DNA of 64,000 bases from Candidatus Poribacteria bacterium (GTDB lineage: Bacteria; Poribacteria; WGA-4E; WGA-3G). Every line of letters begins with the position of its first letter. The stretch's first letter is position 1. A program made the position numbers and the translations under genes. The notes beneath the pieces were generated by a model. The model made no database searches and was not told the DNA's origin. It saw only the letters and a list, made by a program, of their open reading frames with translations. The stretch spans positions 1 through 64,000 of the forward strand of contig JAPPNJ010000059.1 in NCBI GenBank assembly GCA_028818705.1, given 5' to 3'. Shown here in pieces: positions 41,291 through 47,830 of this stretch.

Positions 41291-42247
41291 ATGGCACGCT
41301 ACACAACTCTTTCATCTTCAGAACTCGCACACATTGTGGCGCAGTACCCCATCGGGATGCCACTGAAACTTGAAGAGATTCTCGGCGGATTTGGCAATAG
41401 CAACTTCAAATTGATAACTACAAATGGTGAGTTCCTACTGAAAATTTGCGATGAGAAAGACCTCACAGAACTCGAAATGCAAATTTCACTGTTGCAGCAT
41501 CTCTATAAATACCGGTATCCAACAGTATATCCAGTTCTAACGAAAGATCGGAAACCTCTCACACACGAGCCGGTCGGCAGCGTAATGCTTTATCCCTTTC
41601 TGCAAGGGGAGCAACCACAGTCTTCACCAAGTACCTTAGCACAGCTCGGTGAAGCGTTGGCAAAACTGCACTGCATTCCACCAATCACTGAACTTCCCCG
41701 CTTTGCCATGGGTATCTCACAGATGCTCCCCTTTTTCAAAGAGGTTCAAAACACACGATTTGCAGGACATCCGTTTATTGAATCGCTGAAATTGCACTTG
41801 GAATCAATGGAATCACAACTCAACGCATCCCTTCCAGTCGGACTTCTACATGGGGACCTTTTTTTGGACAACACACTTTTCGATGGAGATCAGTTGGTGG
41901 CGATTCTTGATTTTGAGGAAGGGTGTTATGATACGCTACTAATTGATGTCGGTATGACACTTATTGGGTGTTGTTACACACTGCAGCACAAGCTAAATTC
42001 TAAGGCTGCGCGTCGATTTTTAGACGCTTACAATGCAGTGCGCCCCTTGACAGAAAATGAGTGGGAACATCTGGATTGCTTTGTTCATTATGCTGCTCTC
42101 TCTATAGCGTTCTGGCGGTTCAGGCAGTTTAACATCCGCCGACCGGATGCACGACGCTCCGATACGTATCAGGAGATGATAACTCGTAGCGAGCAATGGA
42201 CAATCGCTAACAGAGACAAATCTATCAAAGCGGAAATATGTCTTTAG
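41291..42247 (+). CDS. APH/homoserine-kinase-like phosphotransferase
   Basis: A 318-residue small-molecule kinase of the aminoglycoside-phosphotransferase/choline-kinase/ThrB2 superfamily. ILGGFGNSNFKL is the nucleotide loop, LLKICDE contains the lysine, VGLLHGDLFLDNTLF is the catalytic Brenner motif (H-G-D...D-N), and AILDFEEG is the metal-binding DFE. The arrangement 'GG.GNSNFKL' is closest to type II homoserine kinases, but the substrate is not certain. It lies 18 bases after the TPR lipoprotein, and its last codons overlap the ABC-F ATG by 10 bases. Confidence 0.8.
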   Translation: MARYTTLSSSELAHIVAQYPIGMPLKLEEILGGFGNSNFKLITTNGEFLLKICDEKDLTELEMQISLLQHLYKYRYPTVYPVLTKDRKPLTHEPVGSVMLYPFLQGEQPQSSPSTLAQLGEALAKLHCIPPITELPRFAMGISQMLPFFKEVQNTRFAGHPFIESLKLHLESMESQLNASLPVGLLHGDLFLDNTLFDGDQLVAILDFEEGCYDTLLIDVGMTLIGCCYTLQHKLNSKAARRFLDAYNAVRPLTENEWEHLDCFVHYAALSIAFWRFRQFNIRRPDARRSDTYQEMITRSEQWTIANRDKSIKAEICL

Positions 42248-43974
42248 TACGGTTAGAACACGTTACCAAATTGTATGATCCAGACCTAATTCTCGACGAT
42301 ATATCGGTCTCAATTGAGCATGGGGACAGAATCGGATTAATTGGTCGTAACGGAACTGGAAAAACGACGTTAATTAAAATTATTAACGGTATGCTTGCCA
42401 ATTTTAAGGGTAAAGTTGTTTCAGCAAGGGGATTGCGTATCGGATATCTTAGTCAAGAACCTGATCTTGCGCGTGACTGTACCTTAAGGCAGGAAATGCT
42501 CAAAGTTTTTGAAGAACGGCGTGCGCTTGAAGATGAAATGCTCCTGCTGGCAGAGGAGATGAAGACACACGAATCACCAGATTTCCTCGCACGCTACGCC
42601 CGAATTCAGGAACAGCATGAACGACTCGGCGGTTACGATTATGAGCATGAGATTAACCGTATCCTTGGGGGTTTGGGTTTCAACGAATTAGATTTTAATC
42701 TTCCAATTGATGTCCTAAGCGGAGGTCAGAAAAGCCGAGCCACCCTCGCCAAGCTACTCCTCGAAAAGCCTGATCTCCTTCTCTTCGATGAACCAACAAA
42801 TCACCTCGACATCAACGGTATTGAATGGCTCGAGAGTTATCTCAATAAAGAATATAACGGCGGAGTCCTTGTCGTTTCCCATGATCGGTATTTTTTGGAC
42901 AAGGTTGTCCGAAAAGTTTGGGAACTCGAAGAGCATGAGATAAAAATTTATCGCGGGAACTACTCCAAGTACATTGAAACCAAAAGGATTGAAAAATTAG
43001 TCGGGGAACGCGCATTCAAAAAGCAACAGGCATTTATCGCACACGAAGAAGATTTTATTCGTCGAAACATCGCAGGACAGCGCACACGAGAGGCACAAGG
43101 CAGACGAAAAAAACTGGAACGATTGGAGAAGGTCGAAAAACCTAAGCGCGATGCGCCTACCTTCAAACTCGCTTTCACACCTGAAACTCGCGGGGGAAAT
43201 GACATTCTCCGATGCCAGAATGTTGGCAAGTCTTTCGGCGACAAAGTCGTTTTCACCGACCTGAATTTTGAGGTGTACCGTCGCGATATTATCGGAATTA
43301 TCGGTGCGAACGGTACCGGCAAGACGACGCTATTTCGTATGATTTTAGACGAGGAACTCCCTACACACGGCGAAATATGGGTGGGACCGACACTCAAATT
43401 TGGATACTACGCGCAAGAATTAGAAGGACTCAACCCAGATAATGAAGTCATCGATGAAATATGGGAACTTTGTCCACAGCAGACACAAGGTGAAATACGT
43501 AGCTTCCTCGGCAAGTTCTTATTCTCTGGTGATGATGTGTTCAAACGGATTGGTAGTCTAAGCGGGGGTGAGCAGAGCCGTGTGCTACTCGCGAAGTTAC
43601 TGTTAACAAACGCGAACGTTTTGCTACTTGATGAACCGACAAACCATCTTGATATTCCGGCGCGTGAAGCGCTGGAGGCGGCATTAGCAGAATATCCCGC
43701 AACCCTTTTCATTATTTCTCACGATCGGTACCTCTTGAGCAATCTCGCAACTAAATTACTGGTTTTTGATGGTAAACCTGGAGGTACCGCAGATCTTTTT
43801 GAAGGCAATTATGCTGAGTACGTTGCACGGCAACAACAAGCACTTCAGGAGAATCAGTCGCCATCTGAAAGCGTTCAAGAATCAAAACCTGTGCAATCTT
43901 CTCAATCCAAAGGTAAGTCAAAATCCAAGCGCAAGCGGAAGATAAAGGCACAACGTCTGGTTGGAAGCAACTAA
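42238..43974 (+). CDS. ABC-F ATPase (Uup/EttA-like)
   Basis: A 578-residue protein with two ABC domains and no membrane region. Domain 1: Walker A GRNGTGKTT, signature LSGGQKSR, Walker B LLLFDEPTNHLD. Domain 2: GANGTGKTT, LSGGEQSR, VLLLDEPTNHLD. The interdomain linker ('RRNIAGQRTREAQGRRKKLE') is the ABC-F P-site-tRNA-interacting segment. A very basic, Lys/Arg-rich C-terminal tail (about 540-578) suggests Uup-like nucleic-acid or ribosome binding. ABC-F proteins act on the ribosome during stalled or regulated translation. Start overlaps the kinase gene by 10 bases, indicating translational coupling. Confidence 0.92.
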   Translation: MSLVRLEHVTKLYDPDLILDDISVSIEHGDRIGLIGRNGTGKTTLIKIINGMLANFKGKVVSARGLRIGYLSQEPDLARDCTLRQEMLKVFEERRALEDEMLLLAEEMKTHESPDFLARYARIQEQHERLGGYDYEHEINRILGGLGFNELDFNLPIDVLSGGQKSRATLAKLLLEKPDLLLFDEPTNHLDINGIEWLESYLNKEYNGGVLVVSHDRYFLDKVVRKVWELEEHEIKIYRGNYSKYIETKRIEKLVGERAFKKQQAFIAHEEDFIRRNIAGQRTREAQGRRKKLERLEKVEKPKRDAPTFKLAFTPETRGGNDILRCQNVGKSFGDKVVFTDLNFEVYRRDIIGIIGANGTGKTTLFRMILDEELPTHGEIWVGPTLKFGYYAQELEGLNPDNEVIDEIWELCPQQTQGEIRSFLGKFLFSGDDVFKRIGSLSGGEQSRVLLAKLLLTNANVLLLDEPTNHLDIPAREALEAALAEYPATLFIISHDRYLLSNLATKLLVFDGKPGGTADLFEGNYAEYVARQQQALQENQSPSESVQESKPVQSSQSKGKSKSKRKRKIKAQRLVGSN

Positions 43975-44090
43975 AACCGAAAAATATCGGTAATTTTATC
44001 CAAATTTTGCCCACACGCTGCAAAATTTATCTTTGCTTTACATTTTTTACTCACAAAGTGCGTCAAAATCAACATTTTTCGTGCTTTAAT

Positions 44091-44119
44091 TTGACATTCC
44101 AGTAAAATTAGTGTATAAT
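44091..44119 (+). promoter_or_regulatory. Perfect consensus sigma-70 promoter of the MarR-like gene
   Basis: TTGACA (44091-44096), a 17-base spacer and TATAAT (44114-44119). It is the only site found in the window in which both boxes match consensus. The 300-base spacer from 43975 otherwise holds only the leader elements listed next and an AT-rich stretch. Confidence 0.85.
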
Positions 44120-44124
44120 TATTC

Positions 44125-44171
44125 TATCCTATACGACGGAAATAATATCGCATATAGGATATATTATTTCC
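44125..44171 (+). promoter_or_regulatory. Interleaved inverted repeats in the MarR-like leader
   Basis: TATCCTATA (44125-44133) pairs with TATAGGATA (44153-44161), and GGAAATAATAT (44138-44148) pairs with ATATTATTTCC (44161-44171). The order A-B-A'-B' allows a pseudoknot in RNA or two overlapping palindromic operators in DNA. It starts about six bases after the -10, where a repressor would block transcription. Confidence 0.7.
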
Positions 44172-44209
44172 ATGATCGGATTAACTTACATGTTAAAAAC
44201 ATAGGGAGT

Positions 44210-44242
44210 ATGAAAACTATGCCCTATAACACAGACTACTAA
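44210..44242 (+). CDS. Possible 10-codon leader peptide
   Basis: ATG 44210 opens the frame MKTMPYNTDY and ends at TAA 44240-44242; GGGAG at 44204-44208 is better spaced for the internal ATG at 44219. It is followed by a GCAAG/CTTGC hairpin (44245-44260). The MarR-like ATG at 44275 has no ribosome site of its own, so the short frame may couple translation. Speculative. Confidence 0.25.
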   Translation: MKTMPYNTDY

Positions 44243-44274
44243 CAGCAAGTTTCGGCTTGCGAGTGCCGCCATAA

Positions 44275-45153
44275 ATGTCTAAAGATCAGGTATTCCATAA
44301 CGAGATTGACATTGTAATGCGCGTGATGCGCCATGCACAAGCAGCTGTCAAATCCAAGTTTCTTCAGGAGATCGTTCCTAATCGTCTGACGATTGTCCAA
44401 TTTAACGCCTTACAACACCTTCATTGGTATGGGCATGAGAATGGGATGTCAGTCAGTGAGTTGGGTGAGCATTTGGGGCTTGCCCATAACACGACATCTG
44501 GCTTGGTGAGTCGTCTTGAGCGACACGGTTGGGTTATTCGTCGTAAATGCGACGAAGATCGAAGACGCGCTCGGATTAAACTCACGCCCCAGTCCGAAGA
44601 ACTTTTCCGTGAAGGCGTAAAACATGCTACGAACTTTTGGCGGAGCACTTTTGGGCAGCTATCCACGCAAGAGCAGAAAAGCCTGATTAAAAGTCTAAAA
44701 CGGTTGAAACAGGTGATGGCGAAACCGGTGTGGCCCAGTTATGCACAACTGCACCCACGTGACGCAGATCACCTTCAAAAACGGTTTGAAGCCGATTTGG
44801 ACGAACTCGCACAGGCAAAGCTCAAGCTCGTCGGGATGCGGTTGATTCTCGCACAAATCGCCGAGAAGCGCGATGAACATGAACTCGCGGCATACCTGAA
44901 CCAAGCTGCCTCCGAAGAAATACGTCATGCCAATCAATTGTTAGCTCTGCTCGGCCATGGTGAGAATTTCAAGGTACTCCTCTCAACCCTCGCACATGAA
45001 GACAACGTCGTCTATGAGGAACTGTTAGCCTTACTTGAAACCGCACCCTACGCCGAAGAAGATGAAGAATTAACGCTCCTACAACAGATGGTTCAAGATA
45101 ACCAAAGATATAGACGTTGGTTTCGCAGTGTTCACAAACAAACGAATCAATGA
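44275..45153 (+). CDS. MarR-type regulator fused to a ferritin-like helical domain
   Basis: A 292-residue protein. Residues 1-150 are a MarR winged helix: 'LTIVQFNALQHLHWYGHENG', the recognition helix 'HLGLAHNTTSGLVSRLERHG' and the wing 'KCDEDRRRARIKLT'. Residues 165-285 are all-helical with ASEEIRHANQLLALLGHGE (E214, E215, H218), the E-E-x-R-H-A signature of rubrerythrin/ferritin-like diiron proteins, and further acidic residues in HEDNVVYEE. The fourth helix (VQDNQRYRRWF) lacks the usual E..H, so a full diiron site is uncertain. A regulator sensing oxygen, peroxide or iron is plausible. Translation start lacks a ribosome site. Confidence 0.75.
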   Translation: MSKDQVFHNEIDIVMRVMRHAQAAVKSKFLQEIVPNRLTIVQFNALQHLHWYGHENGMSVSELGEHLGLAHNTTSGLVSRLERHGWVIRRKCDEDRRRARIKLTPQSEELFREGVKHATNFWRSTFGQLSTQEQKSLIKSLKRLKQVMAKPVWPSYAQLHPRDADHLQKRFEADLDELAQAKLKLVGMRLILAQIAEKRDEHELAAYLNQAASEEIRHANQLLALLGHGENFKVLLSTLAHEDNVVYEELLALLETAPYAEEDEELTLLQQMVQDNQRYRRWFRSVHKQTNQ

Positions 45154-45175: not shown

Positions 45176-45194
45176 CCAGAGTTTCTGGTTTTTT
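45176..45194 (+). terminator. Short Rho-independent terminator
   Basis: CCAGA (45176-45180) with TCTGG (45184-45188) followed by six T. It is a short stem, located just after the MarR-like stop codon. Confidence 0.5.
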
Positions 45195-45259: not shown

Positions 45260-45874
45260 ATGCAGTCCCAAAGCCTTGAAAGCGTTCCACTAGACTGTTA
45301 CGATGACGCTGAACTGATTGAGCAATTTCAAAATGGTGATACCGCTGCCTTTGATACGCTCTTTACACGTTACCAAAAACGCACCTATCGACTCGTGCAA
45401 CGTTTCGTTTCCAACCCCGAAGATGCCTCGGATCTGACCCAAGATGCCTTCATTCGTGCCTACCAAGGTTTAGGAGATTTCAAAAGCCAGTGCCAGTTTT
45501 ATAGTTGGCTTTACCGCATTACGGTGAATCTCTGTATCGATTTCCTTAGAAAAAAATCAAGATCAGAAGTGCTTCTGTATGACTCCGATAAATCTGGCGA
45601 ATTGCCACTGGCAAATGTTGCCGACCCTCGCTCTGAATCTCCAGCACAAGCGGTGGAAAATAAAGAACTGAGGGCACACATCCGGAGAGCAGTCCGACGG
45701 CTCCCCCCAAAACAGCGACAAATCTTCATTTTGCGACACTGGAACGGGCTATCGCTTAAAGATATAGCCGCTGTTGTTGGAAGATCCGATGGAACGGTCA
45801 AAGCACATCTACTTCACGCCCACCGCAATCTCCGCAAACATCTTCGCTCTTATGTACGAGAAGCGGAGTACTAA
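45260..45874 (+). CDS. ECF RNA polymerase sigma factor, stand-alone
   Basis: A 204-residue sigma-W-like factor. Region 2: 'NGDTAAFDTLFTRYQKRTYR', 'EDASDLTQDAFIRAYQGLGD', 'FYSWLYRITVNLCIDFLRKK'. Region 4: 'LPPKQRQIFILRHWNGLSLK' and 'IAAVVGRSDGTVKAHLLHAH'. AAGAGGAAAAC precedes the ATG. It lacks the membrane anchor and propeller of the two large sigma fusions, and no anti-sigma gene is adjacent; the next gene (ftsY) is convergent. How its activity is controlled is not shown. Confidence 0.9.
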   Translation: MQSQSLESVPLDCYDDAELIEQFQNGDTAAFDTLFTRYQKRTYRLVQRFVSNPEDASDLTQDAFIRAYQGLGDFKSQCQFYSWLYRITVNLCIDFLRKKSRSEVLLYDSDKSGELPLANVADPRSESPAQAVENKELRAHIRRAVRRLPPKQRQIFILRHWNGLSLKDIAAVVGRSDGTVKAHLLHAHRNLRKHLRSYVREAEY

Positions 45875-46989: not shown

Positions 46990-47177
46990 TGGCTTCCTTT
47001 TTTCGGTATCCTTTCGTATCTGTAATTTCCAGCAAGAATCGAGTCTGCTTTTTTCATTATGATACAGTAACAACAGGCGAAAAGGCAAATAAAAATTGCA
47101 CTTTTCTTCGCGGTAATATCCAGGTTGACAGATAAACTATTTATTTCGTAGTGCGTTGATATACGATAAAAATTTCC

Positions 47178-47206
47178 TTGCGGTACTCGCTATTTTCCCG
47201 TATACT
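47178..47206 (+). promoter_or_regulatory. Sigma-70-like promoter of the P460 operon
   Basis: TTGCGG (47178-47183), a 17-base spacer and TATACT (47201-47206). Predicted leader of about 45 bases before ATG 47258. Confidence 0.55.
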
Positions 47207-47257
47207 AAAGAATATTACAAAGGTCATTGGTTTTACACACGAATTGAGGAGTCAATC

Positions 47258-47830
47258 ATGAAAACCCAAACACAGTATCTCCTACGAAATCTGGTGGTAA
47301 TAATGGTGTCGTGTCTGTTCTCTATTGCCTGCACCAGCGAAAAGCAATTGGAAGAACTCGTTCAAACACCAGGAGAAGAGACAACAATAGAGGAACCTGT
47401 CCAATCTGAAGAAACGGCAGCCCTCCTTCCAGGCCTCCCTAAAGATGTAGCGGGATACACACAGTGGTTGAAATTGAATGCTGAACCTATACCTCCTGTC
47501 CCTGGTGGTGACCCCCACAACGGCACAAAAAACGTCTATGTCAACAAAACGCGAGAGGTCATCGCACCTAATGGTAAGCAGGAGTTTCCATATCCCGACG
47601 GCAGTATTGTTGTAAAAGACGCAACTCGTCCTGGTAAGGACTTTATTGGACTCGTCGCAATTATGCGAAAAAAAGCAGGCGTGGACCCTGATCACAACGA
47701 TTGGGAGTTCATTGAATACGTCCGAAATGCATCCGATGCCGACTTCAAAGAAATAGCCAGAGATGGGGTCTGTTGGGGATGTCACACCCAAGCCGAAGAT
47801 ATCGATTATGTTTTTACGGAACTTGAATAA
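47258..47830 (+). CDS. Cytochrome P460-family lipoprotein
   Basis: A 190-residue exported haem protein. The lipobox FSIAC gives acylated Cys25. An acidic/Glu-rich linker precedes the cytochrome P460 domain ('VYVNKTREVIAPNGKQEFPY', 'PDGSIVVKDA', 'VAIMRKKAGVDPDHNDWEFI'), ending in the single c-type haem motif CWGCH about 15 residues from the C-terminus. Family members bind one haem and some oxidise hydroxylamine; many have unknown roles, and the crosslinking lysine cannot be assigned by eye. GAGGAG fixes ATG 47258. The next gene, a haem-porin fusion, starts 16 bases on, so the two are probably electron-transfer partners. Confidence 0.85.
   Translation: MKTQTQYLLRNLVVIMVSCLFSIACTSEKQLEELVQTPGEETTIEEPVQSEETAALLPGLPKDVAGYTQWLKLNAEPIPPVPGGDPHNGTKNVYVNKTREVIAPNGKQEFPYPDGSIVVKDATRPGKDFIGLVAIMRKKAGVDPDHNDWEFIEYVRNASDADFKEIARDGVCWGCHTQAEDIDYVFTELE

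Follow-up and report, generated by a model that had tools for sequence, protein, structure and literature searches.

Interleaved inverted repeats upstream of a MarR-ferritin fusion gene in Candidatus Poribacteria as a probable tandem autoregulatory operator

What kind of control region separates a consensus promoter from the gene of a MarR-ferritin fusion protein in a 64,000-nt stretch of Candidatus Poribacteria DNA (the window, by which we mean this whole stretch)? Behind the promoter, two long inverted repeats overlap in the order A-B-A'-B', and the first-pass annotation had offered two alternative RNA folds or a pseudoknot, or two overlapping DNA operators, with autoregulation by metal, oxygen or translation. 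Judged from sequence comparison, the overlapping repeats are most likely neighboring sites at which the MarR-ferritin repressor shuts its own promoter, and probably the following ECF sigma factor gene too. The features from which the question arises are as follows.

44091 to 44119, plus strand: sigma-70-type consensus promoter TTGACA-17-TATAAT (TTGACA 44091-44096, TATAAT 44114-44119)
44125 to 44133 and 44153 to 44161: perfect 9-bp inverted repeat A/A', TATCCTATA and TATAGGATA
44138 to 44148 and 44161 to 44171: perfect 11-bp inverted repeat B/B', GGAAATAATAT and ATATTATTTCC
44210 to 44242, plus strand: 10-codon leader frame MKTMPYNTDY, incidental and found in nearest relatives only
44245 to 44260, no strand assigned: hairpin GCAAGTTTCGGCTTGC, a dispersed genomic repeat outside the control element
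44275 to 45153, plus strand: gene of a 292-aa protein with a MarR-type regulator and a C-terminal ferritin-like four-helix domain

First, the pattern itself was confirmed by re-reading and by a shuffle test. The promoter hexamers matched the consensus at 12 of 12 positions, and TTGACA, TATAAT and the 17-nt spacing were retained across nearly all orthologues. A and B are the maximal perfect inverted repeats found in 44081-44300, with base 44161 common to A' and B'; when the region was shuffled 2000 times with dinucleotides preserved, only 2 shuffles showed two interleaved repeats of such size, and no second case was found in the rest of the window. The short leader frame, the hairpin and the ATG, which lacks a Shine-Dalgarno sequence, were also all present as annotated.

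Second, comparison of the upstream regions of 61 orthologues revealed that the conserved unit is an approximately 45-bp DNA element behind the -10 box, present at all genes examined in families f1 and f4 (for example TATCGTATACGACGGAAAATATATCCGATATAGGATATATT in genus g1, TGTCGTATACGACGGAATATACCTCTAATATAGGACGTATT in g3 and TATCGTATACAATGGAATTATATCTGTTATACGATATAATT in f4, with L052 the most divergent). Its identity across genera was 0.72 compared with 0.50 in shuffles, and it was conserved far above the promoter spacer and the downstream leader. The distance from the -10 box varied (6 nt in g1 and g4, 3-4 in g3 and g2, 0 in f4) and the internal layout was kept; offsets scored as 1 (L035) and 3 (L016 and L020) were register artefacts of the loose pattern used. 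In L016 and L020, two base pairs (GT) are inserted into the left half of the first dyad described below (GTCGTGTATACGAT), the rest of their element being intact. The element consists of two dyads about 22 bp, or two helical turns, apart (RTCGTA/TACGAY and RTCNNAT/ATAGGAY).

44126 to 44137, no strand assigned: predicted operator dyad O1, ATCCTA/TACGAC in the window and RTCGTA/TACGAY in most relatives
44147 to 44160, no strand assigned: predicted operator dyad O2 core, ATCGCAT/ATAGGAT in the window, consensus RTCNNAT/ATAGGAY

O1 is imperfect in the window itself (TCC/CGA) and a perfect 12-bp palindrome in many relatives, with a pair count of 85.6%, and O2 reaches out to approximately 44141-44166 in most congeneric relatives. 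When all dyad centres were scanned blind, O2 ranked first (0.68 Watson-Crick) and O1 second (0.65), with the third-best at 0.49; when column order was shuffled, the best dyad value was reached in 2 of 300 cases and the second in none of 300. Minus-strand self-matches of a sequence-only profile at model positions 18-43 gave further support for O2. Moreover, an f7 orthologue with 37% protein identity has the same core within a perfect palindrome of 22 bp, AATATTTCGTATACGAAATATT, right after its -10 box.

These dyads offer an explanation of the interleaved repeats. The four half-sites are, in order, RTCGTA, RTCGTA, RTCNNAT and RTCCTAT, with the common motif RTC[G/C]-A and the left half of O2 the most degenerate. 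The repeat A/A' (44125..44161) sets the left half of O1 opposite the right half of O2, and A pairs with A' because these two halves are the same word; in the sub-clade of the window, ATCC replaces ATCG in the first half, so that the cross-pairing becomes perfect. B/B' (44138..44171) is formed by the AT-rich outer arms that flank O2, and its register is peculiar to the same sub-clade. Thus, the A-B-A'-B' pattern would simply follow from the presence of four similar half-sites (RTC[G/C]TA) whose orientation alternates.

The region between the element and the start codon appeared to be incidental. Its cross-genus identity was 0.45 compared with 0.43 in shuffles, conservation of the leader peptide and the hairpin was not found across genera, and the hairpin repeat GCAAGTTTNGGCTTGC occurred at 23 places in the genome of the window (G000; 13 exact and 10 with one mismatch) against 1 for the reversed control. 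In genus g3 the start codon lies directly 3' of the element, so that the approximately 100-nt leader seen in the genus of the window, together with its frame and hairpin, must be dispensable. Neither these two features nor the ATG context therefore belongs to the conserved system, and translational control by the leader peptide was rejected on these grounds.

To what extent the element belongs to the marR gene can be read from its distribution. In each genome containing the start of the gene, the profile gave a single strong site (E 3e-14 to 1.5e-6), without exception at the marR-ferritin gene, and no strong element was found in a search of genomes without this gene. The best secondary matches were mostly the opposite strand of the same site, i.e., its palindromes. 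A single site per genome together with co-occurrence with the gene is the pattern that an autoregulatory operator would be expected to produce. Palindromic sites at the regulator's own promoter that are conserved with the gene mark MarR autoregulatory operators and were found here, a reading supported by PMC5487221. Exact copies of the 12-bp palindrome RTCGTATACGAY elsewhere in complete genomes were located inside coding frames and differed between genomes, and the weak profile matches inspected (in G067 and G039) lay upstream of unrelated genes with E-values of 0.002-0.01. A wider regulon was therefore rejected, the two weak matches being too poor to claim. Since binding of MarR to the dyads is inferred, the site could in principle belong to another repressor; however, an operator of a different, unlinked regulator, such as a global stress or metal repressor, is improbable, as the single strong site per genome and the strict co-occurrence with the marR gene argue against other targets.

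Third, the gene that follows was also conserved, a feature that the first-pass annotation did not mention.

45260 to 45874, plus strand: gene of a 204-aa ECF sigma factor (Pfam/NCBIfam), probably co-transcribed with marR

Directly 3' of marR, and co-directional with it, lies an ECF sigma gene in all f1 loci reaching far enough and in f4 and f7, including loci L063-L103 and L146-L167 of relatives that share the operator. The gap between the two genes was 61-141 nt in the f1 loci measured, with a strong Shine-Dalgarno sequence before the ECF gene. Where the next gene could be seen, it was ftsY on the other strand (convergent), and no adjacent anti-sigma gene was observed. We infer that marR and the ECF gene form an operon under the control of the operator, although a weak hairpin resembling a terminator, at 45176-45188 between the two genes, counts against this. 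In f6, neither the palindrome TCGTATACGA nor an ECF neighbor was found at the MarR-ferritin locus, and at two f6 loci (L208 and L209, in G073 and G077) a large ABC transporter-like gene follows the MarR-ferritin gene. On the other side of the promoter, an ABC-F-type ATPase gene (42238-43974) is a conserved neighbor in most relatives (L086 and L093 differ), and a terminator-like hairpin on both strands (43976-43991) comes after it. A cytochrome P460-domain lipoprotein-like gene (47156-47830) is located further downstream and is conserved in many relatives.

The constant presence of the ECF gene downstream raises another explanation, namely that the element is the autoregulatory promoter of this sigma factor (GGAA-16/17-CGT) and not a MarR operator. 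ECF factors often autoregulate, and GGAAT-17-CGTAT is readable in genus g3. However, only 11 of 52 elements have GGAA and CGT in register, the window reads GGAA...TAT, and the palindromes, including that of L060, would be left unexplained. We therefore consider such a promoter hardly probable.

The reading of the repeats as RNA was examined with the 52 distinct orthologous elements from Candidatus Poribacteria, the set used for the pairing and covariation counts. In an RNA switch or H-type pseudoknot, A/A' and B/B' would form alternative leader helices controlling translation or termination. The perfect arms of 9 and 11 bp in the window, rare by chance, and some G-U cells among relatives would speak for it. 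However, A/A' was complete in only 3 and B/B' in only 1 of the 52 elements, and pair 7-35 of A/A' was broken in 40. Pairing over both repeats amounted to 69% of cells compared with 69.6 in shuffles. Covariation in homologous leaders, which had been proposed as a check, was at the level of shuffles, compensatory changes for the two repeats showing no excess. RNAalifold predicted zero pairs on the element alignment, and no relevant family was matched in Rfam. Folding of the leader RNA was not unusually stable either (z -1.66; 12 of 200 shuffles equal or better). Furthermore, the O1 palindrome has no loop, which makes an RNA hairpin impossible there, and, given the offset of the element in f4 and the usual promoter geometry, the transcript of that family should start behind the 5' arm of A. 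Thus, the proposal of two alternative folds or a pseudoknot did not hold, and an RNA switch is the least probable of the explanations considered here, very unlikely indeed. A riboswitch, leader pseudoknot or RNA thermometer was likewise rejected, as conserved covarying leader pairs were lacking.

Finally, we analyzed the protein that would bind the tandem operator. Its MarR domain matched PF01047 (5.8e-11) and PF12802 (9.4e-11) above the Pfam cut-off; a MarR-domain match was present in all 26 orthologues, and PDB MarR structures were matched by sequence and by fold. A fold model of the whole protein was poor (pLDDT 65), and separate folding of the C-terminal domain yielded a four-helix bundle (pLDDT 86). 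The PDB matches listed for this model were ferritins and rubrerythrins, the best being sulerythrin (TM 0.68), with weak E-values of 0.05-0.5, and f6 relatives gave ferritin-type Pfam matches above the cut-off. A ferritin-like fold of the C-terminal domain is thus supported by modeling. With regard to the diiron ligands (E, ExxH, E, ExxH), the window protein retains E215xxH218 and has K182 in place of the helix-A glutamate and N276xxY279 in place of the last ExxH. Lysine for the helix-A glutamate and loss of the last ExxH are common to f1 and f4, and the ligands are intact only in the f6 relatives L061 and L062. This degradation leaves an iron or oxygen signal unsupported for the lineage of the window, and regulation by metal or oxygen, as originally suggested, finds no backing in a domain whose ligands are largely lost. 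The loss in f1 and f4 against the retention in f6 makes it possible to trace, within this lineage, how a metal site disappears. MarR-ferritin matches were found in 71 of the 98 genomes searched, the weakest covering the MarR domain only. Full-length orthologues were found in most f1 genomes (genera g1-g4) and for part of the order (f4); those in f6 and f7 are distant, with 36-38% identity. The named close relatives at 98% protein identity are Candidatus Poribacteria MAGs. Among the papers listed in literature searches for MarR-ferritin fusions, none was relevant.

The element is real and conserved, and it appears to be a DNA operator with tandem MarR sites for autoregulation rather than an RNA device; conserved dyads and gene linkage thus favor the overlapping operators and the autoregulation of the first-pass annotation. 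As a whole, a tandem autoregulatory MarR operator across the transcription start, controlling the marR-ECF operon, is a likely explanation. The DNA from 44126 to approximately 44166 would act as a double-stranded operator spanning the transcription start of the marR-ferritin gene, and O1 and O2 would each fit one MarR dimer. The inner spacing between RTC and GAY differs (6 bp in O1 vs 8 bp in O2), so one dimer may not fit both equally. The MarR protein would exert negative autoregulation: bound to O1 and O2, it would block RNA polymerase at the near-consensus promoter of its gene, and the same block would silence the ECF sigma gene, second in the operon. Release, and with it activation of the ECF sigma factor, may then follow from a signal received through either the ligand pocket usual in MarR proteins or the ferritin-like domain at the C-terminus.

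The operator is thereby turned from a puzzling sequence pattern into something testable, and the case shows how cross-pairing half-sites of a tandem operator can mimic an RNA pseudoknot. More unusual is the surrounding architecture, in which a MarR-ferritin fusion whose iron site is degraded is constantly accompanied by an anti-sigma-free ECF factor. The findings point to a conserved control point for such a factor in Poribacteria and to a ferritin fold that, having lost its iron site, seems to have been put to new use as a sensor or dimer module. More tentatively, one might imagine a one-target cassette of Poribacteria, possible but rather doubtful in its full form, in which the role of an anti-sigma factor is played by a MarR repressor whose ferritin-like domain is metal-dead, the tandem operator gates the marR-ECF operon and possibly overlaps the ECF factor's own promoter, and a ligand of the repurposed ferritin fold switches the whole ECF regulon.

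Several known systems resemble parts of this arrangement. The autoregulatory operators of the MarR family (MarR, PecS, HucR, MepR) have in common with it the winged-helix MarR domain and palindromic AT-rich sites at the regulator's own promoter, whereas here the sites precede a co-directional marR-ECF pair instead of lying between divergent genes, and the protein has an extra C-terminal ferritin-like domain. Two sites at the own promoter are known for PecS of V. vulnificus and are often found in the MarR family (PMC6391409). The PecS sites are likewise two and pseudo-palindromic, and the V. vulnificus site TATCTTTATATTAAGATA (PMC6391409) has a half-site beginning with TATC, as here; the absence of a pecM partner, the cores of 12 to 14 bp and the different protein architecture make this a resemblance only. 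From the ferritin/rubrerythrin superfamily, with which the four-helix fold is common, the lineage of the window differs by Lys182 for the helix-A Glu and NxxY for the second ExxH. Groups of ECF sigma factors without anti-sigma factors, apparently controlled by neighboring TetR or PadR repressors, are also known (PMC8999054). They share with our locus the lack of an adjacent anti-sigma gene and the transcriptional repressor next door, whereas the partner here is a MarR-ferritin fusion, MarR being unmentioned as a partner in that review.
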